Source: Polyangium sp. 15x6 (GTDB lineage: Bacteria > Myxococcota_A > Polyangia > Polyangiales > Polyangiaceae). Taken from it: a DNA stretch of 64,000 bases. A program made the position numbers and the translations under genes. Where the stretch lies: contig NZ_JASBQE010000016.1 in NCBI RefSeq assembly GCF_029960785.1, forward strand, positions 1 to 64,000, given 5' to 3'. The notes beneath the pieces are model-generated. The model made no database searches and was not told where the DNA came from. It saw nothing but the letters and a program-made list of their open reading frames with translations. Position 1 is the first letter of the stretch; each line of letters begins with the position of its first letter. Of the stretch, positions 1 to 53,678 are shown piece after piece.

Positions 1-112
1 GAGAAACTGCGCATCGCGCAGTTTCTCCGCCCTCGGTCCAGGCCGTGCCTGGTCCGGGGTGCAGGGGGCGGACAGCCCCCTGCTGGGGTGCGGGGCAAAG
101 CCCCGCCGCGCA
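1..112. repeat. Composite hairpin element, copy A (partial, right-hand module)
   Basis: The window opens exactly on the first stem of a module. In order: a 12-bp stem at 1-27, an imperfect 9-bp stem at 35-55 (ggtccaggc against gcctggtcc), a 9-bp G-run/C-run stem at 61-83 (gcagggggc/gccccctgc) and a 7-bp stem at 90-106 (gcggggc, loop aaa, gccccgc). It ends against the stop codon of the minus-strand gene at 116. The left partner module of a full copy would lie outside the window. Confidence 0.85.
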
Positions 113-115
113 TCC

Positions 116-2641
116 CTACGCCTTCGGCCGCGCGAGGTTTTCCTTCAGATCGATCCACCACACCGGCGCGCCCGCCGCGGGCTCGCCGCCGGGAGGCCCG
201 ACGCTCACCTCGACGCGGATCGGCCCGACCGCGCGCATGTAGATCCGCTGCCCGACGGCCGTCGCGCCGAGCTTGCAGATCGCCACCTCCACGCGCGGAT
301 CGTCTGCGGCGACTTCGCCGTCGTCCTCGGCGCGCATGTACAGCACCTCGACGTTCGGCTTCGTGCATGCGCCGACCTCGCGCCACACGTCGTACTCGAC
401 CGAGGGATCGAGCACATCGGCGAGCTGGCCGTGGCGATTGCGGCCCACGCGGTACTTGAAGGCGTCGCGCTTCTCGGCGCGCACGTTCGCGCCGATGCGT
501 TCGAACTTCATCGCGAGGGCGCCGAGCGCGCATGCCGTCTTCACCGTCGGCGCGCCGAGGTTCAGCCGATCGGGCTCGATGAAGCGGTGGATCTTCACGT
601 TCTTCGGGAGCGTCGCCGTGAGTTTGTCGAGCAGCGCCGGGTGCATGCTCATGCGACCGCCGAGCATCACGCGCAGGCCGTCGTAGGGATCCGGATCACG
701 CCCGATCTTCTCGAGCGCCTTCTCCAGGCCCACGCGCACCTCCTCGACCGCCTCGGAGAACCAGCCGTCGATCTCCGCGGCGATCGCTTGCCGATCCACC
801 TCGAGCGGGAAGTCGAAGAACGGACCGTCGAGCGTGGCGAGCTTGATCGACTTGGGCAGGCGCGCCTCGCCGCCTTCGAGCAGCGGCCGGATCGCGTCCT
901 TCAGCACCTCGGCGTTCGCGCGGCCCTCGGGGCTCGCGACGAGCAGGTGCTCGAGCGCGCCCACGGGCGTCTCCTCGCTCGGACGATCGAAGGGCACGCG
1001 CGCCGCGCCCACGCTCGCTTCCGCGGCGACGTAGAGCCGATACGCGAGCCGGTGCAGGAGCCGCTCCCCGCCGAACCACGGGATGCTCGTCGGCTCGAGG
1101 TACTCGATCATCCGCTCGTAGCCGCCCTCCATCTGCTCCTCGGGTTTGGCGTTGCGGAACAGACCGAACACCACGCCCGTCTCGCTCGCGCCCGCGTCGA
1201 GCGCCACGAACGGCACCGGATCGGGCTTCGGCTGCACGGCGAACGCGCGGAACGCGAAGGCTGCGAACGGGATCGCCGCGGGGCCCGCGTCGACCACGTT
1301 CAGCATGTCCATGTCGTGGAACTCGAGCATGCCGGCGGGCAGGCTGCGGAAGAGGCCGCGACGAAAGGCCACGAGCGCGCTCTTGCGCCGATCATCGTTC
1401 CAGCCCGAGGGCATCGCCACGAGGTAACGCGTGTGGATGCCGCGCGTCCTGTGGTTGACGTTCAGGCCGATGTAGTAGGCGTAGAGCTCGATCGGATCGA
1501 ACGGATCGTGCGCGCCGATCCCGTCCTCGTCGATGATCGGCGGAGCCGGCTTCTTGAGCGTCTCTTGCGTCTCGGGATCGCCGCGGCCGCGCAGTGAGAT
1601 CTTCTCCTTGCGATCCACGCGCTCGCGCAGCATCGGCAGGTGCGTGAGCGTCGCCGCGCCGAGCGCGATCGACTCCTCGCCGCCCTTCCTGCGCAGAGCG
1701 CGCGCCGCGTGTCCGATCGTCACCTCGCCCCAGCGCGTCATCGGCAGGATCACGCGATCGCGCCACGCCTTCAGCGTGCGTCCGAGCTGCTCGAACGAGA
1801 TCTCGCTCGGGTTCTCGTAGTCGGCCGAGACCACGGGCGCGCTCGTCGCGCCGATGCGCACGAGCTCCGGCGCGCTGCGATCGCCGCGCAGGGCGACGAC
1901 CGTCGTGCTCGATCCGAGATCGATCGACACCCACTCCTTGAGCACGTCGAGTTTCGGATCACGCCGCTTGATCTCCGGCGGCACCGCGTCCTTGTCCGTG
2001 CGCCCGATCCGCCGGTGGATGCCGACGACCTTGCCCTGGCGCAGGATCGCGATCGCCGTCTGCCCCACGTACCGCGCGCCGTTCCAGAGACCGGCCGAGG
2101 GATCGGTGAGCAGGTGCCCCTTCACGCAGGGCAGGTTCGCCACGACCGTCGGGAACAGATCGGCGAGGTGATCACTCGAGGCGGCCCCGTCGTAACGCTC
2201 CACCTTGATCGCGGGGCTGTAATAGTCCTGCGCGCCGGCGCCGTAGATGCGCGGCGTCGTCTGGATCAGCTTGAGGTAGGGGATGGGTGAGGTGTGTTCG
2301 TCGAGCCGGTATTCTTGGTACTGCTTCGTCCACCCGATCTGGTTTTCCATCTCGGGCCCGATGCGAGGCACGCTCGCGTTCATCTCGGTGCCGAAGTAGA
2401 GGAACTTCGTCGGCGCGCCGCCCACGAACGCCGCGATCCGCACCTCGATGAACGACTGCGAGGCTGGCAGCGGAGGCAGCGGGATCGTGTAATCGAGCAC
2501 CAGCGTCGTGGACCAGGGCTGATCGAACAGGCGCGACTCCCACCGTGTCACCAGCGTCGGAAAGCCCCTCCCCTCGAGCGAAGTGAGCCTCTCGGCCTCG
2601 CGAAGGTGGGCGTCGTCGATCGACAGCTCGTAGAGCGACAT
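116..2641 (-). CDS. Hsp70/actin-fold ATPase-like protein with long N-terminal extension
   Basis: 841 aa, ATG start with AAGG about 12 bases upstream. The C-terminal two thirds carry the actin/Hsp70 ATPase signatures: a phosphate-1 loop near residues 239-250 (SIDLGSSTTVVA), a phosphate-2-like motif near 490 (ALDAGASETGVVFG) and an adenosine-type motif near 690 (VMLGGRMSMHP). About 235 residues precede the ATPase core, unlike DnaK where the core starts at the N terminus, and no DnaK peptide-binding domain is recognisable. There is no signal peptide, so it is probably cytoplasmic. The fold family is well supported; partner and substrate are unknown. It is divergent from the Ser/Thr kinase at 2823, with 181 bp between the two starts. 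Confidence 0.8.
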   Translation of the reverse strand: MSLYELSIDDAHLREAERLTSLEGRGFPTLVTRWESRLFDQPWSTTLVLDYTIPLPPLPASQSFIEVRIAAFVGGAPTKFLYFGTEMNASVPRIGPEMENQIGWTKQYQEYRLDEHTSPIPYLKLIQTTPRIYGAGAQDYYSPAIKVERYDGAASSDHLADLFPTVVANLPCVKGHLLTDPSAGLWNGARYVGQTAIAILRQGKVVGIHRRIGRTDKDAVPPEIKRRDPKLDVLKEWVSIDLGSSTTVVALRGDRSAPELVRIGATSAPVVSADYENPSEISFEQLGRTLKAWRDRVILPMTRWGEVTIGHAARALRRKGGEESIALGAATLTHLPMLRERVDRKEKISLRGRGDPETQETLKKPAPPIIDEDGIGAHDPFDPIELYAYYIGLNVNHRTRGIHTRYLVAMPSGWNDDRRKSALVAFRRGLFRSLPAGMLEFHDMDMLNVVDAGPAAIPFAAFAFRAFAVQPKPDPVPFVALDAGASETGVVFGLFRNAKPEEQMEGGYERMIEYLEPTSIPWFGGERLLHRLAYRLYVAAEASVGAARVPFDRPSEETPVGALEHLLVASPEGRANAEVLKDAIRPLLEGGEARLPKSIKLATLDGPFFDFPLEVDRQAIAAEIDGWFSEAVEEVRVGLEKALEKIGRDPDPYDGLRVMLGGRMSMHPALLDKLTATLPKNVKIHRFIEPDRLNLGAPTVKTACALGALAMKFERIGANVRAEKRDAFKYRVGRNRHGQLADVLDPSVEYDVWREVGACTKPNVEVLYMRAEDDGEVAADDPRVEVAICKLGATAVGQRIYMRAVGPIRVEVSVGPPGGEPAAGAPVWWIDLKENLARPKA

Positions 2642-2822: not shown

Positions 2823-4313
2823 ATGACCCTCACCCCCGGCCAAGTCATCGACGACAAGTACCGCATCGTCCGCCTCCTCGGCACGGGGGGGATGGGCGCG
2901 GTCTTCGAGGGCGAGAACACGCGGATCAAGCGCCGCGTCGCCATCAAGGTCCTGCACGCGAGCGTCTCCGGCTCGGGCGAGACCGTCGCGCGCTTCGAGC
3001 GCGAGGCCCAGGCCGCAGGAAGGATTGGCTCGGAGCACATCTGTGAGGTGCTCGATCTCGGCGTTCTCCCCGACCAATCGCGCTACATGGTCATGGAGTA
3101 CCTCGACGGCGAGACCTTGAGCGCGCGGATCAAGCGCTCGGGCCGCCTCACGCCGGCGCAGAGCATCCCGCTCATGGCGCAGGTCCTCGACGCGCTCGGC
3201 GCCGCGCACGCCGCGGGGATCATCCATCGCGATCTCAAGCCCGACAACATCTTCATCCTGCCGAACAAGGCGGGCCGCGCCGACTTCATCAAGATCCTCG
3301 ACTTCGGCGTCTCGAAGTTCTCGCAGATCGGCGGCGAGGAGATGAACGTGACGCGGGCCGGCTCGGTCGTGGGCACGCCGTACTACATGTCGCCCGAGCA
3401 GGCCCGCGGCATGAACGTCGTCGACGCGCGCAGCGACATCTACGCGCTCGGCGTCGTGCTCTACCAGGCGACGACCGGACAAGTCCCCTTCCGCGCCGAG
3501 ACGTTCAACGAGCTGCTCTTCAAGATCGCGCTGGAGCTCCCGCCTCCGCCGCAGCAGTTCGTCCCGGATCTCGATCCCGAGTTCTCCCTGATCATCCAGC
3601 GCGCGATGGCTCGCGAGCAGGTGCACCGCTTCCAGTCCTGCGCCGAGTTCAAGGACGCGCTCTTCGCCTGGCAAGCGGCGCGTGGTGGGAGTCCGAGCAT
3701 CGTCCCCGGCGCGCGTCTGGCGACGCAGCCACCCGGCATGCTCATGGCGCCAGGGCCGCTGACGGCGACGCCGCTGCCCGGCGTGATCCCAGGCGTCGGG
3801 ATGGCAACGCCGCCGCCCGGCGCGCCCGGCATGGGCACGACGGGACAAACCGGTACATCACTCGACGGATCGCAGGGCACGGCGAACGCGTGGGGCCACA
3901 CCTCGGGCGCCGCCGCGCCGAAGCCTTCGCGCGCGAACGCAATCGTGGGCGGGCTCGTCGGGCTCGTGCTGCTCTCGGGTCTCGGCGTCGCCGGCTACCT
4001 GATGCTCGGCAAGAAAGATCCAGCGCCAGCCGGCGGATCGATCCCGAGCACGAGCGTCGCCCCGCCCATCCCAACGACCGCCGCCACACCAACGACGGCG
4101 CCAACGCCGAGCGCCGCAGAGGTCGTCAATCCCCCGTCGGAAGACACGAAGCCGACCGAGCCCACCGCGAGCGCAGCGCCAACCCCGACGACCTCGACCG
4201 CGCCGCTCGGCACGACATCGACGAAGCTCGGCGGTCCACTCCCCAAGCCCTCCGCGACGTCGACGAACAAGACGAACAAGGGCGGGACGACAGGCGGCGA
4301 CTTCGGCTACTAG
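2823..4313 (+). CDS. Membrane-anchored Hanks-type serine/threonine protein kinase
   Basis: 496 aa from the ATG at 2823, which begins directly before the kinase domain; an in-frame upstream extension looks non-coding. All catalytic elements are present: Gly-rich loop GTGGMGAVFEG (20-30), Lys42, HRDLKPDN (135-142, catalytic Asp137), DFG (160-162) and an activation segment ending in the SPEQ motif. A Pro/Gly/Thr-rich linker (290-370) leads to one membrane segment at about 373-395, then a Pro/Thr/Ala-rich tail of about 100 residues likely outside the membrane. This is the usual myxobacterial PknB-like layout but without PASTA repeats. It ends just before hairpin element copy B. Confidence 0.95.
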   Translation: MTLTPGQVIDDKYRIVRLLGTGGMGAVFEGENTRIKRRVAIKVLHASVSGSGETVARFEREAQAAGRIGSEHICEVLDLGVLPDQSRYMVMEYLDGETLSARIKRSGRLTPAQSIPLMAQVLDALGAAHAAGIIHRDLKPDNIFILPNKAGRADFIKILDFGVSKFSQIGGEEMNVTRAGSVVGTPYYMSPEQARGMNVVDARSDIYALGVVLYQATTGQVPFRAETFNELLFKIALELPPPPQQFVPDLDPEFSLIIQRAMAREQVHRFQSCAEFKDALFAWQAARGGSPSIVPGARLATQPPGMLMAPGPLTATPLPGVIPGVGMATPPPGAPGMGTTGQTGTSLDGSQGTANAWGHTSGAAAPKPSRANAIVGGLVGLVLLSGLGVAGYLMLGKKDPAPAGGSIPSTSVAPPIPTTAATPTTAPTPSAAEVVNPPSEDTKPTEPTASAAPTPTTSTAPLGTTSTKLGGPLPKPSATSTNKTNKGGTTGGDFGY

Positions 4314-4328
4314 CCAGGATGCGCGTGC

Positions 4329-4678
4329 GCGGGGCGTTGCCCCGCACCCCAGCAGGGGGCTGTCCGCCCCCTGCACCCCGGACCAGGCACGGCCTGGACC
4401 GAGGGCGGAAAAACCGCGCGATGCGCGGTTTTTCCGACGGGCCCCGGGCAAGACCACGAACGGCGTTGCCAGCTGAAACAGCAGCGCTGTCCCCCTCGTC
4501 GAGGGGACACGTCAACGCCACGGTTTTGACTGGCAACCTCGTCGCGGGTCTTGCCACGGCCCGTTCGATGAACTGCGCATCGCGCAGTTCATCGACCCCG
4601 AGTCCAGCGCTTGCGCTGGTCCGGGTCCAGGGGTGGACAACCCCTGGTCGGGGTCCGGGGTGAAAACCCCGGCGCTAC
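4329..4678. repeat. Composite hairpin element, copy B (full, two opposed modules)
   Basis: About 350 bp filling the gap between convergent stop codons at 4313 and 4686. Left module: 7-bp stem 4329-4345 (gcggggc, loop gtt, gccccgc), then the G5/C5 stem, then the ggaccaggc-type stem, then a 12-bp AT-containing stem around gcgcgatgcgc. The right module repeats the four stems in reverse order and ends at 4655-4672 (ccggggt/accccgg). The core of about 130 bp is an imperfect inverted repeat (ggcaagacc near its start, ggtcttgcc near its end). No ORF in it resembles a protein. Confidence 0.9.
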
Positions 4679-4685
4679 GCTGTGA

Positions 4686-5720
4686 TTAGAACCGACCGAC
4701 GAGCCCGGCGCCGTTCGGCGCGACGTACGGCATGACCATCGCGCCTGCTGGTTTGTCCTGCTTGCTCCCGATCAGGAACAACGCGACGCCTGCGCCGGCC
4801 AGCGCTGCGCCTGCTGCGAAGCCCACGATTGCGCCCGTCCCGCGCGAGGCGGACGCCTCGTCGAGCGCGGTGATCTCCGCCTGTTTGTCTGCGGGGCACG
4901 GCTTTGGGCAGGCGTTGAAGGCGTCGTCGGCTTCCTTCGACTTGTTCACGAACATGACTGTGAAGATCGTGCCGGCGATGATTCCTGCTCCGCCGAGGCC
5001 CATGCCGGCGATGCCGACGTACTTCAGCGGGCTCTTGCCCTGCGGCTTGTCCGGGGTCGGCCCGGCGGCCCCGCCGGTTTGTCCGCTCCCTTCCGGCGCT
5101 GCTGCGCCCTCCGTGGGCGCCTCCACTTCGAGCGACACTTCTTTCTTCTCGCCGTCGCCGAGCGAGACCTCCTGCGTGACGGCGTTGCGCCCCGCCGCGG
5201 TCGCGGTGACCACGTGTTTGCCTGGATCGATCGGGCGGTGCACACCGATGAGCGCGGACGTGACGCCTTGCTCGTCGAGCTTGACCGTCACCTTCGCGGG
5301 ATCCGCTGCGCCTGGGCCCGTGAGCACGATGCGCAGCGAGCCGATGCGCGGCTCGATCGCGGCAAGCTCGGTCTTCGCGTCCTCCTGGGCTCGCTTGAAT
5401 GCCGCGGGCGCGTTCGCGGGCAGCTCCTCGCGGATGATCTTGAGGAACGACTCGCGCGCGGCAACCAGCTTGCCGAGACCGACCTGCCCGCGCCCGATCA
5501 GCAACAGATGCGTCGGCGCGTGGATGATCGCCTCGGCGCGGCCGAGGAGATCGATCGCCTCTGCGTAGTTCTTGTTCTGGAGGGCCTCGGCGCCTTGCTG
5601 CGCAAGGGAGCGCGCGGCCGCCTTCTCCTCGGCCGTCTGCGAGGAAGCAGGCGTGGGCGAAAGGAGCGCGAGCGCGACGGTGGCGGCGGCGGCGAGTGGA
5701 GCGAGACGATGGAGGCGCAC
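4686..5720 (-). CDS. Exported TPR/PEGA-like protein with two membrane segments
   Basis: 344 aa, GTG start with a good GAGGAG ribosome site about nine bases upstream. Signal peptide at 1-28. Residues 30-110 are Ala-rich helices of TPR character (QQGAEALQNKNYAEAIDLLG). Residues 125-200 read as a PEGA-like beta domain (GKHVVTATAAGRN). A Pro/Gly linker follows, then hydrophobic segments at 233-258 and 295-318 separated by a loop holding two cysteines (CPKPC). This layout is common among uncharacterised secreted or envelope proteins of Polyangiales. No enzymatic motif was found; a structural or scaffolding envelope role is a guess. It is divergent from trehalose-6-phosphate synthase. Confidence 0.75.
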   Translation of the reverse strand: MRLHRLAPLAAAATVALALLSPTPASSQTAEEKAAARSLAQQGAEALQNKNYAEAIDLLGRAEAIIHAPTHLLLIGRGQVGLGKLVAARESFLKIIREELPANAPAAFKRAQEDAKTELAAIEPRIGSLRIVLTGPGAADPAKVTVKLDEQGVTSALIGVHRPIDPGKHVVTATAAGRNAVTQEVSLGDGEKKEVSLEVEAPTEGAAAPEGSGQTGGAAGPTPDKPQGKSPLKYVGIAGMGLGGAGIIAGTIFTVMFVNKSKEADDAFNACPKPCPADKQAEITALDEASASRGTGAIVGFAAGAALAGAGVALFLIGSKQDKPAGAMVMPYVAPNGAGLVGRF

Positions 5721-10057: not shown

Positions 10058-11506
10058 TCATGTCACTGCGGCTTCGCGGCTCTTCTCCGGCCTGCGCCGC
10101 GCGAGCGCGCGGACCTCCGCGATCGTCACCACGCGCAGCGCGAGCAGCAGCGCCGCGTGCGTGATCGCGCCGGCGATCACCGCGGCCCAGAGCCCCACCG
10201 CCTTCAGCGCGACGAGCGCGACGACCGTCATGATCACCGTCGCGAGCGTGGCCGCGCCGAGCCGCCCGATCGGCGCCTCGCGCATGTACCGCAGCGCGAG
10301 GATCCCCGTCGCGACGAGCATGCCCACGGAGGCCAGGAGCGCCGCGAACGCGGCCCCGAGCGCGCCGTGCCGCGGCACGAGCCACATGTCGAGCGCCACG
10401 TTCGCCGCGAGCGTCGGCGCGAGCACCGCGCCGAGCTGCCGTTCGCGCTTCGAAGCGAGCAGAGGCAGCGCCGCGACCTGGAACGCGAACGTCGCCGGCA
10501 CGTGCCACGCGAGCACCCGGAGCACGTCCGACGTACCCGCGAAGTCGCGCCCCTCGTACACGAGCGCGACCACGTCCGGCGCGACGATGCTCACGCCCGC
10601 CGCGAGCGGCAGCCCGAGCGCCGTCGCCACCACGAGCGCCGTCCGGAAGAGCTTCACGAAGCCAGGCTGATCGTGCGCGTAGAGCCGCATGCCTGCTGCG
10701 AACGCGGCGCCGAGCACGAGATCGGAGATCAACTCGAGCTGCTCGACGAGCACCCACGCCGCGCTGAACACGCCGACCGCGGCCTCGCCGTCGAGCCAGC
10801 GCAGGATCACGCGATCGGCTTGCCGGATCACGCCGAGCAGCGCGCCGATGAGCCCGAGCGGGATGCTCTTCTTCGCGATGGCCAAGAGCTCGTGCAGGCC
10901 CACTTCGAGCCGCGGCTGGTAGAGCCGCTTGCGCAAGAAGTGGTACGTGAGCGCGAGCTCGATCGCGTTGCCGAGCGCGAGCGCGCCTGCCGCCGCGACC
11001 ACGCCGAGCCCCGACGCCACGAGCGCGACCGACAGAGCGATCACGAAGAGACGCGCGCCGAGCTCGACGTACAGGATGTACTGGAAGCGCTCGTGCGCCT
11101 CGAAGCTCAGCCACATCGTCGTGTAGAGGATCGTGGCGAGCTGTGACGCGGCTGCGATCACGACGAGCGTCGCGCCTTCTCCCGAGCGCGTCGCCACCGT
11201 GAACAGCGTCGCGCAGAGCAGCGTCGTCGCGCCCATCGCGCCGCGCGCGACGAGCGCCGATCCCAGGTGCCTCGGCCCGAGCTCCGGCGTCACCGCGATC
11301 TCGCGCGCGAGATAACCACGCACGCCGAGGCCTGCGATCACGGCGGCCATCGAGGTGATCGCCAGCGACGCCTGCAGCTCCCCCCACGCGGCCACGCCCA
11401 GCCGACGCGCCAGGTAGCCCACGTAGACGACGCTCAGGACGGCCATGATGGCCTGCTTCGCGATCATCAAGGCGGCGTTCCACGCCACCCTTTGTCCCTG
11501 GTGCAT
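10058..11506 (-). CDS. Oligosaccharide/lipid-linked flippase, MATE/MVF-type (Wzx-like)
   Basis: 482 aa, almost wholly hydrophobic with about 12-14 predicted membrane segments, beginning with an N-terminal amphipathic stretch then KQAIMAVLSVVYVGYLARRLG, the family's typical first helix followed by a conserved Arg and Gly. The family moves undecaprenyl-linked sugar repeat units, or other lipid-linked glycans, across the inner membrane. Length fits. No glycosyltransferase sits beside it, so it is either an orphan or serves the exopolysaccharide locus 16 kb away. Exact substrate not predictable. Confidence 0.85.
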   Translation of the reverse strand: MHQGQRVAWNAALMIAKQAIMAVLSVVYVGYLARRLGVAAWGELQASLAITSMAAVIAGLGVRGYLAREIAVTPELGPRHLGSALVARGAMGATTLLCATLFTVATRSGEGATLVVIAAASQLATILYTTMWLSFEAHERFQYILYVELGARLFVIALSVALVASGLGVVAAAGALALGNAIELALTYHFLRKRLYQPRLEVGLHELLAIAKKSIPLGLIGALLGVIRQADRVILRWLDGEAAVGVFSAAWVLVEQLELISDLVLGAAFAAGMRLYAHDQPGFVKLFRTALVVATALGLPLAAGVSIVAPDVVALVYEGRDFAGTSDVLRVLAWHVPATFAFQVAALPLLASKRERQLGAVLAPTLAANVALDMWLVPRHGALGAAFAALLASVGMLVATGILALRYMREAPIGRLGAATLATVIMTVVALVALKAVGLWAAVIAGAITHAALLLALRVVTIAEVRALARRRPEKSREAAVT

Positions 11507-11665
11507 CCTCCCGCGCCCCCGCTCCGCGACAGCGGACTGACGCTTGGATGCTCGATCCCTGCTCCGCGCGTCGGGCTCTTCAGGAGCACAAAAGCAGCGT
11601 GGCGGCTTTCGCCGCCACCTTCTCTGCTTGCGCGGCGTTTTCCCGGAACGCCGCGACTTCTGCTT

Positions 11666-11741
11666 TGGAGCGGGACACGAGGCTCGAACTCGCGACCCTC
11701 AGCTTGGGAAGCTGATGCTCTACCAACTGAGCTAGTCCCGC
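11666..11741 (-). tRNA. tRNA-Gly(CCC)
   Basis: 76 nt on the minus strand with 3-prime CCA encoded. Acceptor stem GCGGGAC/GTCCCGC with discriminator U; D arm CTAGCTCAGTTGGTAGAGC; anticodon stem TCAGC/GCTGA with 7-nt loop TTCCCAA, so the anticodon at positions 34-36 is CCC, reading GGG; T arm with GTTCGAGCC. It lies in the gap between the flippase and a divergently read lipoprotein gene. Confidence 0.97.
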
Positions 11742-11865: not shown

Positions 11866-13206
11866 GTGCTTCCCGCTCGTCCCCGTTTCCTCGCGGCAGC
11901 GCTGTTCGTCCCTTCCCTCGCCCTCGCGACCGCGAGCTGCGGCGGACCTCAGACGAACGCCGGCGGTGCGCCCGCGCAGAGCCCCGAGATCGAGTGCCCG
12001 GATCCAATCGGCACGATCCCTCGCGAGAGCTGCGCCGAGATCGCCGACGACTTCGGCTCCTTCGACGTCTCGAGCTCGCTCAAGCTCGCGGGCGCGAGCC
12101 GCGGCGCCGAGCAACGCATCGAGGCGATCCGCGCCGCCGCCGATCTCGCCGCCAAGCTCAAAGAGCGCCGTGTCGCACTCTGCGAGTCGTACAACACGTG
12201 CAAGACGAAGCCCGCCGATCACGCCGCCGAGGATCAACGCCTCGCGGGCCTGATGAAGGAGCTCATCGATCTCTGGGACGCGCGCAAGTTCCTGAACGTG
12301 GATGACGTCGCTCGCTTCCGCGGAGGCGTCACGAAGATCGCCGCCAAGCTGGACGGGACGACCGCGGGCCCGAGCACCGACAGCGCGGAGCCTGCCGTGG
12401 GCAAACCCGGGAAGAAGACCGTGCGCGGCGAAGCGCTCGCGCGGATCGAGGGCGCAGGCCTCACGTTCGCCCCGTCCGGCGGCAACGTGACGATCACCTC
12501 GACGACCGCAGGCACGCACGACGCGCTCCGCGCCGCGGCGGAGGAGCTTCGCGGTACGGGTGGTCGCATGCGCGTGCGTATCTTCGGTTCGTACACGCCG
12601 TCGGCGCCTCCGCTCATCCCGGCCGGCGAGGATCTCATCATCCGCTTCAAGTACCGCGCGGCGCAGGCAGGCGAGATCCACGTCGCGCTGCGTTCGCTCG
12701 AGGATCCCGACGCAGTCGAGAGCACGATCGTCTTCCGCGTCGCCGCGGGCACCGGGACGGAGAGCACGACGCTCACGGCCACGCCCGGGTCGAGCGGGTT
12801 TTACGTGGGCATCAGCTCGCGCGGCGCCGGTAACGTGGAGTTCGACGATGTCGAGCTCGTTCGCCAGAACGCCGTGATCGCCGCAGCCCGCGCCGAGTCC
12901 GCGACCGAGGCGAACCTCGCGTCGAACTGCACGATCAGCAAGACGAAGCCCCTCGCCGGCAAGGCGTCGTTCCTCTGCGAGTCGGGCGACGGAGACAAAC
13001 TCGTTCTCGGTCAGCCCAAGGGCCACCTCTACCTCGCGCTCAAGACGCCCGCAGGCGAACGCGCGCGCATCCGCACCCTCTCACTCGAAGGCGGACGCAG
13101 TCTCGACCTGAACGGGAAGGAAGACACCGAGCTCGTCATCGGGCTCGAAGGACCGGGCTCAGCCACGATCCAGTCGATCGAGCTCCTGCCCGTCGGCGGC
13201 GAGTAG
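11866..13206 (+). CDS. Large lipoprotein of unknown function
   Basis: 446 aa from the GTG at 11866, chosen because it places a good signal peptide first (RPRFLAAALFVPSLALATASC) with a lipobox cysteine near residue 24; a longer frame starting at 11755 would add Arg/Pro-rich sequence. The mature protein has an acidic helical first half (PESCAEIADDFG-like and DLAAKLKERR segments) and a beta-rich second half from about residue 180 (GSYTPSAPPLIPAGEDLIIRF, SGFYVGISSRGAGNVEFDDVEL) resembling carbohydrate-binding-like jellyroll strands. No catalytic motif recognised. Probably outer-membrane or periplasm facing. It ends at hairpin element copy C. Confidence 0.75.
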   Translation: MLPARPRFLAAALFVPSLALATASCGGPQTNAGGAPAQSPEIECPDPIGTIPRESCAEIADDFGSFDVSSSLKLAGASRGAEQRIEAIRAAADLAAKLKERRVALCESYNTCKTKPADHAAEDQRLAGLMKELIDLWDARKFLNVDDVARFRGGVTKIAAKLDGTTAGPSTDSAEPAVGKPGKKTVRGEALARIEGAGLTFAPSGGNVTITSTTAGTHDALRAAAEELRGTGGRMRVRIFGSYTPSAPPLIPAGEDLIIRFKYRAAQAGEIHVALRSLEDPDAVESTIVFRVAAGTGTESTTLTATPGSSGFYVGISSRGAGNVEFDDVELVRQNAVIAAARAESATEANLASNCTISKTKPLAGKASFLCESGDGDKLVLGQPKGHLYLALKTPAGERARIRTLSLEGGRSLDLNGKEDTELVIGLEGPGSATIQSIELLPVGGE

Positions 13207-13223
13207 TCGTCTCATCGGGGGCC

Positions 13224-13535
13224 GCTGCGCTGGGGCTTCGCCCCAGGCCCCACCAGGGGCTGTCCGCCCCTGGACCCGGACCAGCCAGGGGCTGGACCCG
13301 GGGTCGATGAACTGCGCGATGCGCAGTTCATCGAACAGGCCGAGGCAAGACCGGCTACGACCCTGCCAGCCAAGACAGCCGCGCTGCCCTTTCGACGGGC
13401 GACGCGGTCCCACCGGGCCCGTTGGAAGAACTGCGCGGAGCGCAGTTCTTCCACCCTCGGTCCAGGCCGTGCCTGGTCCGGGTCGAGGGGCGGATAGCCC
13501 CCGCGGGGCCCGGGGCAGCGCCCCGGCGCGGCGGC
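13224..13535. repeat. Composite hairpin element, copy C (full)
   Basis: Between convergent stops at 13206 and 13550. Left terminal stem 13230-13246 (ctggggc, loop ttc, gccccag), right terminal stem 13510-13526 (ccggggc, loop agc, gccccgg). Both inner stems centre on aactgcgc...gcgcagtt. The core belongs to a second variant (gaccctgccagcc, ccgcgctgccc) shared with copy H rather than with B and E. Confidence 0.88.
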
Positions 13536-13549
13536 CCCAAGAAGAAACC

Positions 13550-20444: not shown

Positions 20445-20765
20445 GTCAACGCACCGCGACGCGGGGAAACGGGCGTTGAGACGAAGGGGAACGTGCCGGG
20501 ATCGGGATCCGTGGGCGTTGCGAGGTGTGGGAATCGTTCGGGAACGGGATCCGCGGTCGTTGCGCGGCGGAGGAATCGTCCGAGATCGAGGATCCGCGGG
20601 CGTTGCGAGGGGTGGGAATCGTCCGGGATCGGGATCCGGGAGCGTTGAGAGGAAGGGGAACGCTCCAGGATGCGGATGCGGGGGCGTTGAGCGGAAGGGA
20701 AACGCTCGCGGATGCGGATGCGGGGGTCGTTGAGACAAAGGGGAATGCCCGTTGCGACGAAGCGG
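20445..20765. repeat. 42-bp tandem repeat array (minisatellite)
   Basis: Six near-full units of 42-43 bp, starting at about 20487, 20529, 20571, 20614, 20656 and 20698, with degenerate partial units on both sides. Each unit runs gggaa(t)cg...ggatc-ggatccg...gcgttg-gagg-. The period equals 14 codons, so open frames on both strands look like repeated 14-residue peptides, but neither has a signal or recognised domain. There are no unique spacers between units. It fills the gap upstream of the pseudo-esterase and downstream of the 98-aa gene. Confidence 0.85.
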
Positions 20766-24291: not shown

Positions 24292-25041
24292 ATGACCGAG
24301 CCGCTCATCCGCATCGAAGACATCACGAAGAGCTTCGGCGCGCGGACGGTGCTGCGCGGCGTGAACCTCTCCATTCCGCGCGGCTGCTTGTACGGCCTCA
24401 TCGGGCCTGGCGCGTCGGGCAAGAGTGTCTTGCTCAAGCTCATCACGGGCCTCTATCGGCCCGACGCGGGGCGCATCCTCGTCGAGGGGCAGGACGTGCA
24501 CGGGATGAGCGAGCTCGAGCTGCAGAAGTTCCGGCTGCGCTTCGGCATGTTGTTCCAGAACAACGCGCTGTTCGACTACATGACCGTGGGCGAGAACATC
24601 GCGTTCCCGCTGCGCCGGCTCTTCGATCTGCGCGAGGACGAGATCGTCGAGCGGGTGTCGGAGCGGCTCCGCGTGGTGTCGCTGCCCGGCTTCGAGGATC
24701 GTTTGCCGGCGGGGCTCTCGGGCGGGCAGAAGAAGCGCGTGGGCGTGGCGCGGGCGACGATCACCAAGGCGGAGATCGTGCTCTACGACGAGCCCGCGGC
24801 GGGCCTCGATCCCGTGACGTCGCAGCGCATCTTCGAGCTGCTCCGCGACGAGCAGCGCGCCGCGGGGGCGACCGTGGTGATGGTCTCGAGTGACCTCGAT
24901 CGTCTCCTCACCGTGACCGATCGTGTCGGCATGCTCTACCGTGGCCGCCTCGTGTTCGACGGCACGACCGAAGAAGCGAAGACGAGCGACGACCCCTACG
25001 TCCGCCAGTTCGTCCACGGGCTCACGGAAGGCCCCCTCTGA
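24292..25041 (+). CDS. ABC transporter ATP-binding protein, MlaF-like
   Basis: 249 aa. Walker A GPGASGKS (38-45), Q-loop FQNNALF near 89, signature LSGGQKKR (142-149), Walker B IVLYDEPAAGLD (162-173, Glu167). The FRLRFGMLFQNNALFDYMTV and GGQKKRVGVARA stretches resemble the MlaF/Ttg2A subgroup, which powers retrograde phospholipid transport with MlaE and MlaD. The H-loop, normally SHD, reads SSD at 199-201, so the switch His is missing. No permease or MCE protein is adjacent. The ATPase may be weak, or serve a permease encoded elsewhere. Confidence 0.88.
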   Translation: MTEPLIRIEDITKSFGARTVLRGVNLSIPRGCLYGLIGPGASGKSVLLKLITGLYRPDAGRILVEGQDVHGMSELELQKFRLRFGMLFQNNALFDYMTVGENIAFPLRRLFDLREDEIVERVSERLRVVSLPGFEDRLPAGLSGGQKKRVGVARATITKAEIVLYDEPAAGLDPVTSQRIFELLRDEQRAAGATVVMVSSDLDRLLTVTDRVGMLYRGRLVFDGTTEEAKTSDDPYVRQFVHGLTEGPL

Positions 25042-25049
25042 TCTCCTTT

Positions 25050-25155
25050 GCATCGACCGCACCGCGGTCGATGCACCAGCGGTCCAGGGCTTGCCCTGGT
25101 CCGGGTGCAGGGGCGGACAGCCCCTGCTCGGGTCCGGGGTGAAACCCCGGCACTA
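25050..25155. repeat. Composite hairpin element, copy D (single module)
   Basis: A one-module form between convergent stops at 25041 and 25161. Its first stem differs from the long copies: gcatcgaccgc / gcggtcgatgc (25050-25060 and 25064-25074, perfect 11 bp). The ggtccaggg, gcagggg and ccggggt/accccgg stems follow in the standard order. Confidence 0.88.
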
Positions 25156-25160
25156 ACGCT

Positions 25161-26054
25161 TCACACGAAGTGAAACCACTGCGTGGGGTTGTCCCGCAGG
25201 AACGCGCCGAGATCGTCCATCAGGCGTTGCGCCGCCTCGTCGAGGTCGCTCGCTTTCGGGCGGCGGGGGACGTGGATCGGGGGGAGGACGTGGGCTTCGT
25301 AGTGCATGAAGCCGAGCCTCCGCGTGAAGACGGGCATGATGGGCGCTCCGCTCAGCGCGGCGATCATCAGCGGGCCTTCGGGCACCTGAAAGGGCTCGCC
25401 ACAGAGTGCGACCGTGCGCGCGCGCATTCCGGGCGGCACGCGGTCGATCTGCATCGCCACGACGTCGTCTTGCTGCAGGTGCCTGAGGAGCGGCAGTGCG
25501 TCGAGCGCCGTCTCGCCGATGTGCACGACCTTGACGCCCGAGCGCTCGCGCAGCTCGTCTTGCATCGCGCGGGCTCGCTCGTCGCGCTCGCGGGCCATCA
25601 CCACGACCACGTTCTTTGCGTGCACCCGGCTCAGCATCGGGCCCGCCACTTCCCAGCCGCCGAGGTGCGCGGTGGCGATGACGATTCCCTTCCCCTCGGC
25701 GGCGCACGCCTCGTAGTTCGCGACGCCGATCGCGTTCGAGAGCAGCCCGAGCTCCCGCCCGCGCGGCGTCCCGAGCAGCATCGCTTCGGTCATGCAGCTC
25801 GCGTAGTTCGTGAAGACGGCCGCGACGTCGGCGACCTCTTCGAGCGGGGGGCGCGGGCCGAGCACGCGGCGCAGGTTCTGGCGCACGCAGGCGCGCTTTT
25901 CGTGCAGGCCTGCGGCGAAGGCGGGGCCGAAGAGCAGCGGGCCGTAGCGGAGCAGCGCTTCGGGGCCGTGCGTCACGGCCTTCACCATCAGCCGACGGAG
26001 GAACGCGGAGTCGGAGCGGAGCCCCTCCGCGATGTGCCGGATGCCGCTCTGCAT
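25161..26054 (-). CDS. LpxL/HtrB-type lipid A acyltransferase
   Basis: 297 aa, ATG start. The catalytic H-x4-E motif is present as AHLGGWE near residues 128-134; downstream VALCGEPFQVPEGPLMIAALSGAPIMPVF matches the family's second half. Acyl chains are transferred from acyl-ACP to Kdo2-lipid IVA or a related glycolipid at the inner membrane face. No classic N-terminal transmembrane helix is obvious, though residues 40-50 are hydrophobic. It is a monocistronic minus-strand gene, divergent from the response regulator at 26353. Confidence 0.88.
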   Translation of the reverse strand: MQSGIRHIAEGLRSDSAFLRRLMVKAVTHGPEALLRYGPLLFGPAFAAGLHEKRACVRQNLRRVLGPRPPLEEVADVAAVFTNYASCMTEAMLLGTPRGRELGLLSNAIGVANYEACAAEGKGIVIATAHLGGWEVAGPMLSRVHAKNVVVVMARERDERARAMQDELRERSGVKVVHIGETALDALPLLRHLQQDDVVAMQIDRVPPGMRARTVALCGEPFQVPEGPLMIAALSGAPIMPVFTRRLGFMHYEAHVLPPIHVPRRPKASDLDEAAQRLMDDLGAFLRDNPTQWFHFV

Positions 26055-26988: not shown

Positions 26989-26999
26989 GAGGAGACGGA

Positions 27000-27345
27000 G
27001 CGGGGCGTTGCCCCGCACCCCAGCAGGGGGCTGTCCGCCCCCTGCACCCCGGACCAGGCACGGCCTGGACCGAAGGCCGAGAAACCGCGCGATGCGCGGT
27101 TTCTCGGACGGGCCCGTGGCAAGACCACAGACCACGTTGCCAGCCGAGACGGCAGCGCGCCCGTCATCGCGTCGACACGTTACCGCTGCGGTTTGACTGG
27201 CAAGCCCGTCGCCGGTCTTGACCTGGCCGTTCGATGAACTGCGCATCGCGCAGTTCATCGACCCCGGGTCCAGCGCTTGCGCTGGTCCGGGTCCAGGGGT
27301 GGACAACCCCTGGTGGGGCCTGGGGCAACGCCCCAGCGCAGCGGC
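27000..27345. repeat. Composite hairpin element, copy E (full)
   Basis: About 346 bp between convergent stops at 26988 and 27360. Terminal stems 27000-27016 (gcggggc, loop gtt, gccccgc) and 27320-27336 (ctggggc, loop aac, gccccag). The inner stems are the aaccgcgc/gcgcggtt type on the left and the aactgcgc/gcgcagtt type on the right. The core matches copy B over most of its length, with its own inverted ggcaagacc/ggtcttgacc ends. Confidence 0.9.
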
Positions 27346-27359
27346 GTCGACATGAGACC

Positions 27360-28535
27360 TCAGGCCTGACAGGCGCGCGCTGCCGGCGGGATCTCGTAGT
27401 CGCGGAATTCGAATGGGTCGCCGAGGCGGCCATCCATGGCGGCGCGGGCGATGTTGTACATCTCCCGCGCGGTCACGTAATGCACCCGGAAACCTTCTCG
27501 CTTTCCCAGCCAGGCCAGTGCCTCGTGAAAGCGGCGCTGTGGGGCTCCGAGTAGGCTGTCTGCTTCGCGCTCGGGCGCGCCGTGCGTCGAGAGTTTTACG
27601 AATGCCCATTCGGGCTTGCCTCGTACGGACACGCCCTGGTCGATCCAGCGCTCGAGTCGCGGCAGCGTTGCTGGATCTCGCGCCGTCAACGCGCCGGCGT
27701 CGATCCTGAGTGGCAGCCCTGGTCCTTGCCGGAGTGACAGCGCCAGCGGACCCTGCATGCAGAGCACTCGCTCCATCCGCCCGTCGCCTACGCTCGCTGG
27801 CCGCCCGCGCTCGTGCGCTTTGCGCCGCTTCACGTCGCCGGACGGATAATAGATGCTGTTCACGATCCGCGGCTGCGTCCGGTCTGGCGCCGATGGGAAC
27901 GTGAAATCGGCGTAACAGCCTAGCTCGTGCAGCAGGTCCAGCTCGTCGTCCACGCCGCAATGGGCGCCGTCGGCGCGCGAATTTGCCAGACACCAGTTTC
28001 CGTGGATGAACGCCCATCGATCCACGCCCCGCACCCGCGGCACGAGACTGTGACGACCGAGCGATGCGAGTGTCCCCTCGAATTTCTCTCGCAGCGTGCT
28101 CCGCGTGTCCTGGTCGTGGTGCAGGTGCACCTCCACCTCGCCGAGGCCCATCGCCACGAGCTCGGCGATCGGCTCGACCAGCGCCGGATCGTACTGGTCG
28201 CCCGGATAAAAAAACGTGTGCCGCGGCGGCCTGCCGTTCGAATCACGGAAGCACGCGGCGAGCGCGGGATAGCCGCGCCGCCACGTCGCCACCCGCGTGA
28301 GACCGCGCGAGAGTGGGGCTCGACCCGGGGCCTTCGCGTCGCCCGTCCAGAGCGGCTCGAAGTGATCGCAGATCGCCACGAGCACGTGCTTCGGCCGCGT
28401 CACCTCGCCGAAAACGAACCGCTCGACGCCGCGGACGAGCCGCGCCTCGGCCCAGCTCCCCATCCATGGCGCGAACTTCTCGGCCCACGGCGCGATTCGC
28501 CCCGCCACCGCTCTCTGCGCGGCCTCCACCTTCAT
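27360..28535 (-). CDS. Polysaccharide-deacetylase-like protein of the exopolysaccharide locus
   Basis: 391 aa, ATG at 28535 inside the stop codon of the upstream Wzz/BY-kinase-like gene (ATGA overlap), so translation is likely coupled. The N-terminal 40 residues are basic and amphipathic. From residue 60 a TIM-like barrel pattern holds metal-site candidates: CDHFEPLW, HTFFYPGDQY, EVHLHHDQDT with an H-x-H-H cluster, and FVKLSTHG near the C terminus. No export signal was seen. It resembles proteins annotated as putative polysaccharide deacetylase in gliding bacteria. Deacetylation of the exported glycan is plausible but not shown. Confidence 0.6.
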   Translation of the reverse strand: MKVEAAQRAVAGRIAPWAEKFAPWMGSWAEARLVRGVERFVFGEVTRPKHVLVAICDHFEPLWTGDAKAPGRAPLSRGLTRVATWRRGYPALAACFRDSNGRPPRHTFFYPGDQYDPALVEPIAELVAMGLGEVEVHLHHDQDTRSTLREKFEGTLASLGRHSLVPRVRGVDRWAFIHGNWCLANSRADGAHCGVDDELDLLHELGCYADFTFPSAPDRTQPRIVNSIYYPSGDVKRRKAHERGRPASVGDGRMERVLCMQGPLALSLRQGPGLPLRIDAGALTARDPATLPRLERWIDQGVSVRGKPEWAFVKLSTHGAPEREADSLLGAPQRRFHEALAWLGKREGFRVHYVTAREMYNIARAAMDGRLGDPFEFRDYEIPPAARACQA

Positions 28536-43882: not shown

Positions 43883-45265
43883 ATGCTGGAGCTCGTCGTC
43901 GACAACCCCTACACCCTCGATGTAGCCGTCAGACGCCCCCTCGCCGAAGCGGGAGAGGTCGATCAGGCCCTGGATGCCGCCCGCGCGGCCGCCCGGGCCT
44001 TCGCCCCCACGCCGGTGAAGGACCGCGTGGCCCTGTGCCTCGCGGCCGTTTCACGCATGGAAGAGCGGGCAGAGGCGATCGCGGCCGACATCACGGCCAT
44101 GATGGGCAAGCCCCTGCGTCAGGCGCGTGGCGAGGTGGGCGGGATGGCCAAGCGCGCCCGGTACATGGCGAGCATCGCGGAGGCGTCGCTCGCGGACACG
44201 GTGTTGCCGTCCCAGGAGGGCTTCGAGCGGCGGATCGCCCGGGCCCCACTGGGGGTGGTGTTCAACCTGCCTGCATGGAACTACCCGCTGCTCACGGCCG
44301 TGAACGTGGTGATCCCGGCCGTTCTCGCGGGGAACGCGGTGATCCTGAAGCACTCGCCGCGGTCGCCGCTCTGCGGGGAGCACTTCGCCGACGCACTGCG
44401 TGATGCGGGGGCGCCGGCCGGGCTCGTCCAGGCGCTGCACTGCGATCACGAGATGGCAGGGCGCATCGTGGCCGATCCGCGCGTGGATCACGTGGCGTTC
44501 ACAGGCTCGGTGGCGGGGGGGCACAAGGTGTACGCCGCGGCGGCGGCCGCGCGCTTCGTGGACGTGGGGCTCGAGCTCGGCGGCAAGGACGCGGCCTACG
44601 TGGCGGCGGACGCCGATCTCGAGAAGGCGATCGAGAACATCGTCGACGGCGCTTGCTACAACGCGGGCCAGAGCTGCTGCGCGGTCGAGCGCGTCTACGT
44701 GCACCGGAGCTTGTACGAGAAGTTCGTCGAGGGGTGTCTCGCGCTCATGAAGACCTACCGTCTCGGCGATCCGATGGTCGCCGAGACGAACATGGGTCCG
44801 ATCGCGCAGCCACATCACCCAGCGTTCATCCAGGCGCAGATCGATCGCGCGATCGCCGCAGGCGCGAAGGTTCTCTTGGGAGGCAAACGAACGCAGGTGG
44901 ACGGGCGCGGGCGTTTCTTCGAGCCCACGCTGCTCGTGAACGTCGATCCACGCATGGACGTGATGCGAGTCGAGACGTTCGGTCCCGTGCTGCCGATCGC
45001 GGCCGTGGGCTCGGACGAGGAGGCCGTGGCGCTGGCGAACGACAGCGATCTCGGTCTCACAGCGAGCATCTGGACGCAGGACCGAGAGCGCGCAGTGCGG
45101 CTCGCAAAGCAGCTCGATGTAGGCACTGTCTACATGAACCAGTGCGACACGCTCGACCCAGCCCTGCCATGGACCGGCGTGAAGGACAGCGGCAAAGGCT
45201 CGACCCTGTCCACGCTCGGCTTCCTGCACCTCACACGGCCAAAGGCGCTGAACTTCAAGCTCTGA
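43883..45265 (+). CDS. NAD(P)-dependent aldehyde dehydrogenase
   Basis: 460 aa from the ATG at 43883. Catalytic Cys265 in NAGQSCC, general base Glu231 in LELGGKD, Asn133 in PAWNYPLL, cofactor Lys156 in ILKHSP and FTGSVAGG for the Rossmann turn. It is shorter than the usual 480-500 aa, in the range of succinate-semialdehyde and related dehydrogenases of the Sad/YneI type. The aldehyde is not identifiable. Its stop codon is immediately followed by hairpin element copy F at the next base. Confidence 0.93.
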   Translation: MLELVVDNPYTLDVAVRRPLAEAGEVDQALDAARAAARAFAPTPVKDRVALCLAAVSRMEERAEAIAADITAMMGKPLRQARGEVGGMAKRARYMASIAEASLADTVLPSQEGFERRIARAPLGVVFNLPAWNYPLLTAVNVVIPAVLAGNAVILKHSPRSPLCGEHFADALRDAGAPAGLVQALHCDHEMAGRIVADPRVDHVAFTGSVAGGHKVYAAAAAARFVDVGLELGGKDAAYVAADADLEKAIENIVDGACYNAGQSCCAVERVYVHRSLYEKFVEGCLALMKTYRLGDPMVAETNMGPIAQPHHPAFIQAQIDRAIAAGAKVLLGGKRTQVDGRGRFFEPTLLVNVDPRMDVMRVETFGPVLPIAAVGSDEEAVALANDSDLGLTASIWTQDRERAVRLAKQLDVGTVYMNQCDTLDPALPWTGVKDSGKGSTLSTLGFLHLTRPKALNFKL

Positions 45266-45524
45266 GCGGGGCGTTGCCCCGCACCCCAGCAGGGGGCTGT
45301 CCGCCCCCTGCACCCCGGACCAGGCACGGCCTGGACCGAGGGCGGATGAACCGCGCGATGCGCGGTTCATCCGACGGGCCCGAACGTCGCCGGTCTTGAC
45401 CTGGCCCGTTCGATGAACTGCGCATCGCGCAGTTCATCGACCCCGAGTCCAGCGCTTGCGCTGGTCCCGGGTCCAGGGGTGGACAACCCCTGGTCGGGGT
45501 CCGGGGTGAAACCCCGGCGCTGCG
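45266..45524. repeat. Composite hairpin element, copy F (core-shortened)
   Basis: About 259 bp, exactly filling the gap between convergent stops (45265 and 45526). Terminal stems 45266-45282 (gcggggc/gccccgc) and 45501-45517 (ccggggt/accccgg). Both modules are complete, but the core is reduced to about 40 bp that keeps only gacgggcccg and gccggtcttgacctggccc. It appears to be a B/E-type copy that lost its core centre. Confidence 0.9.
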
Positions 45525-45525
45525 C

Positions 45526-46335
45526 CTACGCTTCGAACTGGTAGGTCGCGCGCTCTGCGCCTTCGACCTTCACGACGATGCGGTTTGGCTCGAGGTGCAC
45601 GACGGCGTGTGCGGCGGCGGGGCGACCGGGCGCGTCGTCGTCGAGGTTCTCGATGAGGCTCTGCAGCGTGACGAACGGGATGCCGTCGATCACGTCGAGG
45701 TGGTTCCAGTGCAGGTGACCGTTGAAGACGGCGCGCACGATGCCGCTCTCGCGCAGGATTGCGCGGAGCGCGCGACGCTCCTCGACGAGACAGATGTGAG
45801 GCGAGCCTTCGAACCAGCGGTTGCCGCGGAGGTCCTGATCGGCTGCGCTGTGGTGCATGAGGACGATGGTCGGCGCGTGGGTCGCGGCGAGATCCTCGCG
45901 CAGCCAGCGGAGCTGCTCTTCGCCCACGGTGACGTCGCGATCCTTGCGCTCGCGCGTGTGGAGCACGACGAAGTGGAAGCTGCCGCGATCGAACGAGTGG
46001 TAGAGCCGATCGAGGTCGGGGCGTTGCCAGACCGAGAGGAGCTCCGAAGGCGCGAGGTGCGCGGTGTCGTGGTTGCCTGCGACGTTCACGAGCTCGGCGC
46101 GCGCGCCTCGTAGAAGGTTCACGCATGCGGCGTAGCGGGCGAGATCGGCGTCGTGCCCTTCGTCCTCGATGTCGTCGCCGAGGTTCACGACGAGGTCGGG
46201 CTTCACGACGTCGTTCATGCGGGCGACGAAGGCCTTCGCGAGGCTGGGGGCGCTGCGCGTCAACTTGCGCAGCTTGCCCGCGAATCCAGCTTCGGGGCCG
46301 AAGTGGAGATCCGTGATCAGGCCGAGCGTGAGCAT
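45526..46335 (-). CDS. Calcineurin-like metallophosphoesterase
   Basis: 269 aa, ATG start. Two-metal phosphoesterase motifs: D-L-H (Asp9, His11), GDD at 53-55, GNHD at 87-90, MHHS near 165 and GHLHWN near 215. No signal peptide, so probably cytoplasmic, acting on nucleotides or small phosphodiesters (CpdA-like class, known to include cAMP phosphodiesterases). The BolA gene lies 7 bp upstream on the same strand, so the two are likely one transcript. Confidence 0.93.
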   Translation of the reverse strand: MLTLGLITDLHFGPEAGFAGKLRKLTRSAPSLAKAFVARMNDVVKPDLVVNLGDDIEDEGHDADLARYAACVNLLRGARAELVNVAGNHDTAHLAPSELLSVWQRPDLDRLYHSFDRGSFHFVVLHTRERKDRDVTVGEEQLRWLREDLAATHAPTIVLMHHSAADQDLRGNRWFEGSPHICLVEERRALRAILRESGIVRAVFNGHLHWNHLDVIDGIPFVTLQSLIENLDDDAPGRPAAAHAVVHLEPNRIVVKVEGAERATYQFEA

Positions 46336-53556: not shown

Positions 53557-53566
53557 GAGCTCCTTT

Positions 53567-53678
53567 GCATCGACCGCATCGCGGCCTTTGCACCAGCGGT
53601 CCAGGGCTTGCCCTGGTCCGGGTGCAGGGGCGGATAGCCCCTGCTCGGGCCCGGGGTGAAACCCCGGCGCTACGCTGT
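53567..53678. repeat. Composite hairpin element, copy G (single module)
   Basis: One-module form between convergent stops 53556 and 53690, nearly identical to copy D. First stem 53567-53591 is imperfect here (gcatcgaccgc against gcggcctttgc), while the other three stems, including 53651-53667 (ccggggt, loop gaa, accccgg), are intact. Confidence 0.85.

Follow-up and report, generated by a model that had tools for sequence, protein, structure and literature searches.

What kind of element is the large hairpin repeat at positions 4329-4678 of this Polyangium sp. 15x6 DNA, and how has it come to recur so often nearby? A first-pass annotation of the window (the whole 64,000-nt stretch analysed, which is contig C77 from base 1) had listed eight copies, the long ones holding two modules that face each other. 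We found repeated, mutually inverted sequence at every one of these places (direct repeat families D1, D3-D7, D11, D16 and D17; inverted pairs such as I1-I14), amounting to 13 modules. Two facing modules were identified in the copies at 4329, 13224, 27000, 45266 and 61786, and single modules in those at 25050 and 53567; the copy at 1-112, which the contig end truncates, shows one module in its preserved part. The search model R1 was built from these 13 modules, which match it by construction. The features are as follows.

1-117, minus strand: single module m1, cut by the contig end (110.7 bits)
4318-4445, plus strand: module m2a, left half of a facing pair, next to the stop codon of the plus-strand gene ending at 4313 (114.6 bits)
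4446-4555, no strand: middle segment of pair m2, an imperfect inverted repeat (repeat analysis and fold)
4556-4683, minus strand: module m2b, next to the stop codon of the minus-strand gene at 4686-5720 (135.1 bits)
13199-13217, plus strand: possible degenerate end repeat of m3a, overlapping the end of the plus-strand gene (13 of 19 bases)
13219-13343, plus strand: module m3a (128.1 bits)
13414-13537, minus strand: module m3b (110.0 bits)
25040-25161, minus strand: single module m4, occupying the space from one stop codon to another (111.0 bits)
26989-27116, plus strand: module m5a (115.5 bits)
27222-27347, minus strand: module m5b (139.5 bits)
27350-27368, minus strand: possible degenerate end repeat of m5b (12 of 19 bases)
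45255-45382, plus strand: module m6a (116.6 bits)
45401-45528, minus strand: module m6b (135.2 bits)
53557-53678, minus strand: single module m7, between two stop codons (102.4 bits)
61762-61780, plus strand: end repeat of m8a, better kept than at any other of the 13 module ends in the window (17 of 19 bases of CTGAGCATTGGTCTCATCT)
61783-61907, plus strand: module m8a (123.2 bits)
61977-62101, minus strand: module m8b (123.5 bits)

Three other repeats were seen in the window: a 42-nt tandem repeat in five copies at 20463-20673 (D10), six diverged 82-nt copies spaced 180-201 nt apart inside a coding region at 55677-56694 (D2), and two 46-nt copies, 86 nt apart and 89% identical, at 61155-61286 (D15).

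Fold, copy number and range of the module

At all eight loci each module, ~125 nt long, consists of four stems in a fixed order. Read from the adjoining stop codon, stem D (GGGG..CCCC) comes first, followed by C (CAGGGG, with a loop that is mostly TGTCC or TATCC), B (GGACCAG..CTGGACC) and A (AACTGCGC); the truncated m1 also runs D, C, B, A. A typical facing copy of ~320-370 nt is built of outer 19-bp repeats, a D-C-B-A module running inwards, a middle and the mirror-image module. The middle is mostly 62-110 nt, with longer spacers in some copies; measured over the model, the 32 facing pairs are 214-366 nt long. GTAG is present at some ends only, and there is no constant tag. The 13 modules gave an alignment of 136 columns with a mean column identity of 75%, on which RNAalifold placed 32 pairs, 11 of them with at least one pair-keeping change on both sides. 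The four-stem series of the first-pass annotation was thus confirmed in its order and its stem sequences, and the ambiguity that it had written as CTGG(A/T)CC proved to be a conserved A·A mismatch in stem B (T·T on the opposite strand), kept in 239 of 240 modules.

We extended the covariation analysis to 258 module matches, 250 of them distinct, from six genomes; among the 250, stems D, C, B and A were parsed in 246, 243, 240 and 235, respectively. The search anchors fix or nearly fix pairs 3-6 of D, 4-7 of C and 4-6 of B, and only the remaining pairs carry weight. Pair 2 of D was paired in 99% (76% when shuffled), pairs 8 and 9 of B in 99% each (51% and 54% when shuffled), and pair 5 of A, a stem whose positions were picked by best pairing, in 99% (45% when shuffled). 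The outer C pairs were weakly conserved, being paired in 56% and 62%. The locus at 4314-4685 (372 nt) folded at -251.2 kcal/mol with a z-score of -12.75, and one module folded as DNA had a z-score of -6.93. The A·A mismatch together with the covariation suggests that the folded strand itself may be recognised by some factor. Upkeep of the palindromes by template-switch correction alone was considered and is doubted, by argument only, since such correction should erase the A·A mismatch too.

Strong covariation is also what speaks for a structured non-coding RNA family or a cis-regulatory RNA. However, no Rfam family other than a tRNA reached its gathering threshold in the window, and the best sub-threshold match at 4300-4700 was RNAI at 28.6 bits (cut-off 47); we ruled against a structured RNA by this absence. 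Moreover, facing pairs are nearly identical when read on either strand, and the element is present or absent across orthologous sites. We find the RNA reading hardly credible.

The first-pass annotation had proposed a search for further copies in the genome and in other Polyangiales. In the genome (13.38 Mb in 275 contigs) all 150 candidates scored matched R1, so that it holds at least 150 matches, the true number probably being higher. We scored 864 kb of it, namely the window plus 800 kb from contigs with known matches, in which the density is too high to stand for the whole genome. This sample gave 77 matches with a G+C content of 65-79%, 75 of which were strong (at least 98 bits) and two near 44 bits. 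They form 45 loci, comprising 13 singles and 32 facing pairs, all with D outwards; one pair (C22:85382) depends on an overlapping 44-bit match. Modules were also seen within ~160 bases of the starts of contigs C77, C115, C173, C184, C201 and C256, so that the repeats probably break assemblies.

R1 matched all six Polyangium genomes searched. Among 38 relatives, all 5 of the same genus matched, including Polyangium fumosum DSM 14668, P. sp. 6x1 and P. sp. y55x31, and none of the 33 others did. A search of 102 family genomes outside the genus, with stricter filters and 32 candidates scored per genome, returned one genome with a single borderline match (E 7.3e-4). Across the relatives and family genomes searched, the repeat family is thus genus-wide and not Polyangiales-wide. 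A search of 72,556 plasmid and 50,697 phage records found nothing matching the copy at 4329-4678.

Gene context and occupancy of orthologous sites

The first-pass annotation had missed where the element lies among genes, that it moves, its end repeats and its distribution along the chromosome. With home-made gene calls, we found elements 30 times in 122 convergent gaps, 9 times in 389 same-strand gaps and 5 times in 120 divergent gaps. Relative to the intergenic DNA outside the elements, the densities are 3.04, 0.18 and 0.14 elements per kb, a ~17-fold enrichment per base of convergent over same-strand gaps. The model edge lies a median of 10 nt from the stop codon, and on 53 of the 69 sides that face a stop codon the distance is at most 20 nt. 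Of the window's convergent gaps, six hold an element; the other eight, each of at most 91 nt, do not.

This enrichment and the closeness to stop codons would be expected if selection kept the element as a bidirectional 3'-end structure (a terminator or an mRNA 3' stabiliser), mobility being only the means of spread. Both transcripts receive the same hairpins from facing modules, and one gap can carry differing architectures in different species. However, in the alignment of the 13 modules the stems are not followed by a T-run, none of the modules showing a G+C hairpin with a U-tract directly behind it as in an intrinsic terminator, and some of the element-free convergent gaps contain an ordinary hairpin and T-tract. 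Five-base runs of T or A, counted across the whole gap, barely distinguish the two classes (6 of 29 gaps with an element, 8 of 27 element-free gaps of at least 50 nt). Purging of insertions elsewhere would give the identical pattern, and the convergent gaps of contigs carrying dnaA are nearly element-free. We judge selection for a 3'-end structure unlikely as the explanation; a terminator role, like any other function in transcription, is putative.

Comparison of orthologous sites in six species showed 68 of 152 comparisons empty and 84 filled; they cover 44 of 54 loci and are not mutually independent. The first comparison took seven window loci, m1 being omitted, and m8 gave no usable comparison. 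At 35 of the 68 empty sites the aligned flanks were at most 14 nt apart; a further 5 had 17-24 nt, 21 had 52-86 nt and 2 had 129 and 175 nt, and the remaining 5 were rearranged gaps of more than 1 kb (locus G003:30795). At the m4 site, genomes G001 and G004 share an identical 5-nt empty gap, and G000, G002 and G005 carry elements of differing architecture, a pattern that we read as probable repeated insertion. There were 42 filled orthologous pairs, 24 of them with two modules on both sides. Median identity among these 24 was 0.871, compared with 0.822 for 115 random cross-species pairs; nearest-neighbour identity within the window's own genome was 0.85-0.94 (32 pairs), a maximum over 31 and so not directly comparable. 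Given the 68 empty sites in 152 comparisons, mobility of the element is well supported.

Element ends, target duplications and a Tn5-like insertion sequence

A 19-bp end repeat, CTGAGCATTGGTCTCATCT, lies ~34 nt outside stem D in a minority of ends. Initial scoring took in 253 of the 258 module ends and 105 of the 109 pairs; a few had been entered twice, which leaves 246 distinct ends and 102 distinct pairs. At least 12 of the 19 bases were matched by 41 of the 246 ends, 27 of the 41 being exactly 34 nt before stem D, and at least 15 by 22; the other 205 fell below 12. Shuffled flanks reached 12 in 23 of 3,000 cases, spread over a wider position range. Some ends at 12-13 of 19, for example at m4, are coding sequence and may be chance matches.

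We then identified 9-bp target duplications at two of the 102 pairs, both with well-kept ends. Copy L178 (1,011 bp, with a long spacer) has a duplication of 9/9 and ends at 17 and 17 of 19; copy C77:84518-84884 of the window's own genome has 8/9 and ends at 17 and 13 of 19. By their weaker end, they rank first and joint third. Random pairings reached 8/9 in 9 of 20,000 cases and 9/9 in none. In the other 100 pairs no duplication of 8/9 or better was recognisable, the next best being three pairs at 6/9, and L019 has both ends at 15/19, yet a duplication of only 5/9. When L178 was closed, a 9-bp stem was restored, with the duplication centred on the stem's loop. Closing C77:84518-84884 gave no clear hairpin and many empty sites are too short for one, indicating that hairpin targeting is not general.

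The ends of an insertion sequence match the outer flank of some modules. This sequence, 1,504 bp in the widely spaced copy L182 of genome G005, encodes a 475-residue transposase that matched the IS4-family model NF033590 of NCBIfam (254.9 bits, cut-off 160), the Pfam Tn5 dimerisation domain and the Tn5 transposase in the PDB (E 4.5e-36). It is flanked by a 9-bp duplication inside a B stem, centred on the hairpin loop. A second, identical transposase gene in L167 also lies within the element, with one side lost. Both full insertion-sequence copies (L182:496-1999 and L167 ~10185-11688) sit inside modules, as if the element were a landing site, and the link may therefore consist partly of the insertion sequence jumping into the element. 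In the 2.9 Mb examined, only G005 had the transposase, as two full copies and one fragment, and the insertion sequence was not found in the examined parts of the window's own genome.

Among the wide-set G005 copies, none had a transposase between two intact modules. L182 was tried as an autonomous copy and rejected, as it contains the whole insertion sequence but inserted into a module. L181 holds a C-terminal transposase fragment, and L178, L179, L180, L183 and L185 had no match to the transposase. L178, L180 and L183 have related spacers with 21-bp tandem repeats, and L185 has a different 21-bp repeat; overall, spacers of ~0.5-0.75 kb with 21-nt or 43-nt tandem repeats were observed in L178, L180, L183, L185 and L067:15535-16076. 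In L184, which has a partial left module, we identified, between the partial and the full module, a tyrosine recombinase gene at 473-1477 (PF00589, 47.5 bits) and a 512-codon frame without a Pfam match (1395-2933). We take this to be a probable nested insertion, although the recombinase may be another mobiliser; it counts against a single mobiliser and slightly lowered our confidence in the reading given next. A beta-propeller gene between the wide-set modules C198:296936 and C198:300234 may be cargo or chance.

Taken together, we consider the element probably a family of miniature inverted-repeat transposable elements (MITEs) moved in trans by a Tn5-like transposase of the IS4 family. The placement among MITEs is made because outer ends, a minority of them, match Tn5-like insertion-sequence ends and because 9-bp duplications occur at two copies. 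The element is short and numerous, with no room for a transposase gene; terminal inverted repeats common with an autonomous element are found in a minority of ends and a target-site duplication at 2 of 102 pairs, and orthologous sites are empty as described above. Ends and duplications of the MITE type were thus seen in a minority of copies, and from these the Tn5-like transposase is inferred as the actual mover. A transposase whose own insertion sequence has the same 19-bp ends would move the element in trans, and insertion would make 9-bp target duplications. Judging by two sites only, hairpins such as terminators may be favoured targets. Copies would be tolerated between convergent genes, where a structured non-coding insert is presumably least harmful.

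A REP/BIME-type element moved as single-stranded DNA by a RAYT (Y1 tyrosine transposase) would account for some of the same observations. The 3'-end location in convergent and same-strand gaps is REP/BIME-like; the part of PMC3733652 drawn on here describes the same gene context, near both flanking 3' ends, for conv-REPs, and inverted pairs with structured spacers and a conserved mismatch would fit. However, PF01797 had no match in G002, G004 or G005 (the last in 2 contigs), matching elsewhere once in G000 (partial), once in G003 and twice in G001, and the one match checked for flanking repeats, that in G000, had no module in the 3,174 bases around it. The module has four hairpins and not one, and no single palindrome of 20-40 bp with a GTAG or CGTC tag was found. 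Y1 transposition is not expected to yield 9-bp target duplications, and these are present at two copies. With no Y1 match in three genomes we rejected a RAYT origin, which we regard as decidedly improbable.

Distribution along the chromosome and relation to known systems

On the 13.24-Mb contig C1 of G005, the 150 R1 matches listed (108 loci) all lie at 2.3-10.0 Mb and are densest at 5-7.5 Mb. Exact patterns, which are unranked by score, agree with this map: all 38 matches of GGGGCTATCCGCCCC fall between 2.93 and 9.46 Mb, and of the first 100 by coordinate among the 151 matches of GGGGCTGTCCGCCCC, 2 lie below 2.6 Mb and the remaining 98 between 2.65 and 6.95 Mb. Among 40 sampled 20-kb windows of G005, compared within arc limits set after the map was seen, the 19 starting at 2.31-8.58 Mb contain 19 modules, compared with 2 in the remaining 21, both of these at 13.2 Mb, indicating that the origin side is poor, not empty. 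The dnaA gene of G005 is at 11.65 Mb, and the dnaA contigs of four species carried 2 modules in 400 kb. Cumulative GC skew and the skew of GGGNAGGG, a motif known from E. coli FtsK work, both peak in windows at 6.6-7.3 Mb, the GC curve being noisy; we place the terminus provisionally there. It was also observed that GGGNAGGG is strand-skewed on the two chromosome halves, with the switch between the 6.6 and 7.3 Mb windows. Copies thus concentrate around the terminus, the late-copied part, in the single near-complete genome mapped. The final 20 kb of the window correspond to ~6.90-6.93 Mb in G005, near the terminus, a place that may explain the window's element density.

Convergent gene pairs numbered 16.5 per 100 kb on dnaA contigs versus 14.1 on element-bearing contigs. 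Within G005 they numbered 11.1 per 100 kb outside 2.6-9.3 Mb versus 16.4 inside, a difference too small to explain the map. A second palindromic repeat of ~125 nt with the ends AGCAGCCTGTGGA..TCCACAGGCTGCT was also seen in convergent gaps, at C242:65251-65373 in the window's own genome and at G005:C1 ~6923530-6923680; its core has 8 exact matches in G005, 2 of them outside the element arc.

The terminus-centred map, the presence of convergent gaps on dnaA contigs and the near invariance of unpaired features would suit a chromosome-organising site of the terminus half, bound by a nucleoid or segregation protein. However, site occupancy varies among species, the same map would arise if insertion were biased or purging weaker close to the terminus, and that map comes from one near-complete genome whose origin-side samples have fewer convergent pairs. 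We hold such a site to be very improbable as the explanation of the element; chromosome organisation is a candidate role. It is likewise unlikely, to about the degree given for the 3'-end structure, that the mobile family was drafted as a terminus-half feature. In that case the B hairpin with its A·A mismatch would be a folded-strand binding site, copies between convergent genes would mark or buffer (terminate, insulate or anchor) the late-replicating part of the 13-Mb chromosome, and origin-side copies would have been removed or never made. We return to the MITE family as the preferred reading: multi-hairpin modules, linked by their ends to a Tn5-like transposase, found in a genus whose genomes are very large. 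Narrow convergent gaps can be filled differently across species, and copies crowd towards the terminus though dnaA contigs have convergent gaps. The family is a natural system for asking how insertions are directed to, or cleared from, parts of a chromosome, and whether mobile repeats with a strong fold turn into 3'-end elements.

The first-pass annotation had known of no named REP, BIME, MITE or attenuator family with this layout. No described match was found in the literature searched, most subscription journals lying outside its coverage, but the kind is known, and the ends and duplications place the element among MITEs. One close likeness is to the R0 and R2 repeats of Pseudomonas fluorescens, which the portion of Silby et al. 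2009 (PMC2718517) used here describes as MITE-like, with inverted repeats common with insertion sequences of the same genome, a tail-to-tail (convergent) bias, more than 500 copies each and large repeat-free regions; its authors proposed a 'least worst' location and a transposase acting in trans. The Polyangium element resembles them in its MITE-like nature, its convergent bias and inverted repeats that it has in common with an insertion sequence. In contrast, R0 and R2 are 89 and 110 bp with inverted repeats of 24 and 43 bp, compared with a four-hairpin module of ~125 nt, and their deserts are 60 blocks of 16-176 kb, whereas the poor zone in G005 is the whole origin-side arc.

Similarly, the consulted sections of Di Nocera et al. 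2013 (PMC3733652) place most conv-REPs no more than 20 bp from both flanking 3' ends, with REP ends often supplying the stop codon, and describe REP dimers as inverted pairs with structured spacers. The paired inverted layout, the convergent 3'-end place and ends able to supply a stop codon are common to the Polyangium element. However, a REP in that account is a single hairpin of 20-40 bp with a GTAG or CGTC tag and, for GTAG, a RAYT link; the Polyangium element has four hairpins, lacks PF01797 in three of six genomes, and has Tn5-like ends and 9-bp duplications at two copies. With Tn5-like insertion sequences of the IS4 family it shares the matching 19-bp ends, a 9-bp duplication also being present at one insertion-sequence copy with its Tn5-related transposase; unlike them it has no transposase, only the ends being in common. 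Like the SPRITE, BOX, RUP and QMITE2 MITEs, as covered in the main text of a review (PMC10969869), it is small, intergenic and strongly structured and would be moved in trans. That main text, in which neither 'IS4' nor 'convergent' appears, gives MITEs as typically AT-rich, unlike the G+C-rich Polyangium modules. Altogether, the gene context and the dimer layout are already known, on the parts of these sources cited, from REPs and from Pseudomonas R0/R2; the Polyangium element departs from the known systems in its module of four hairpins, in having Tn5-like ends together with 9-bp duplications, in its G+C-rich composition and in its terminus-centred map.
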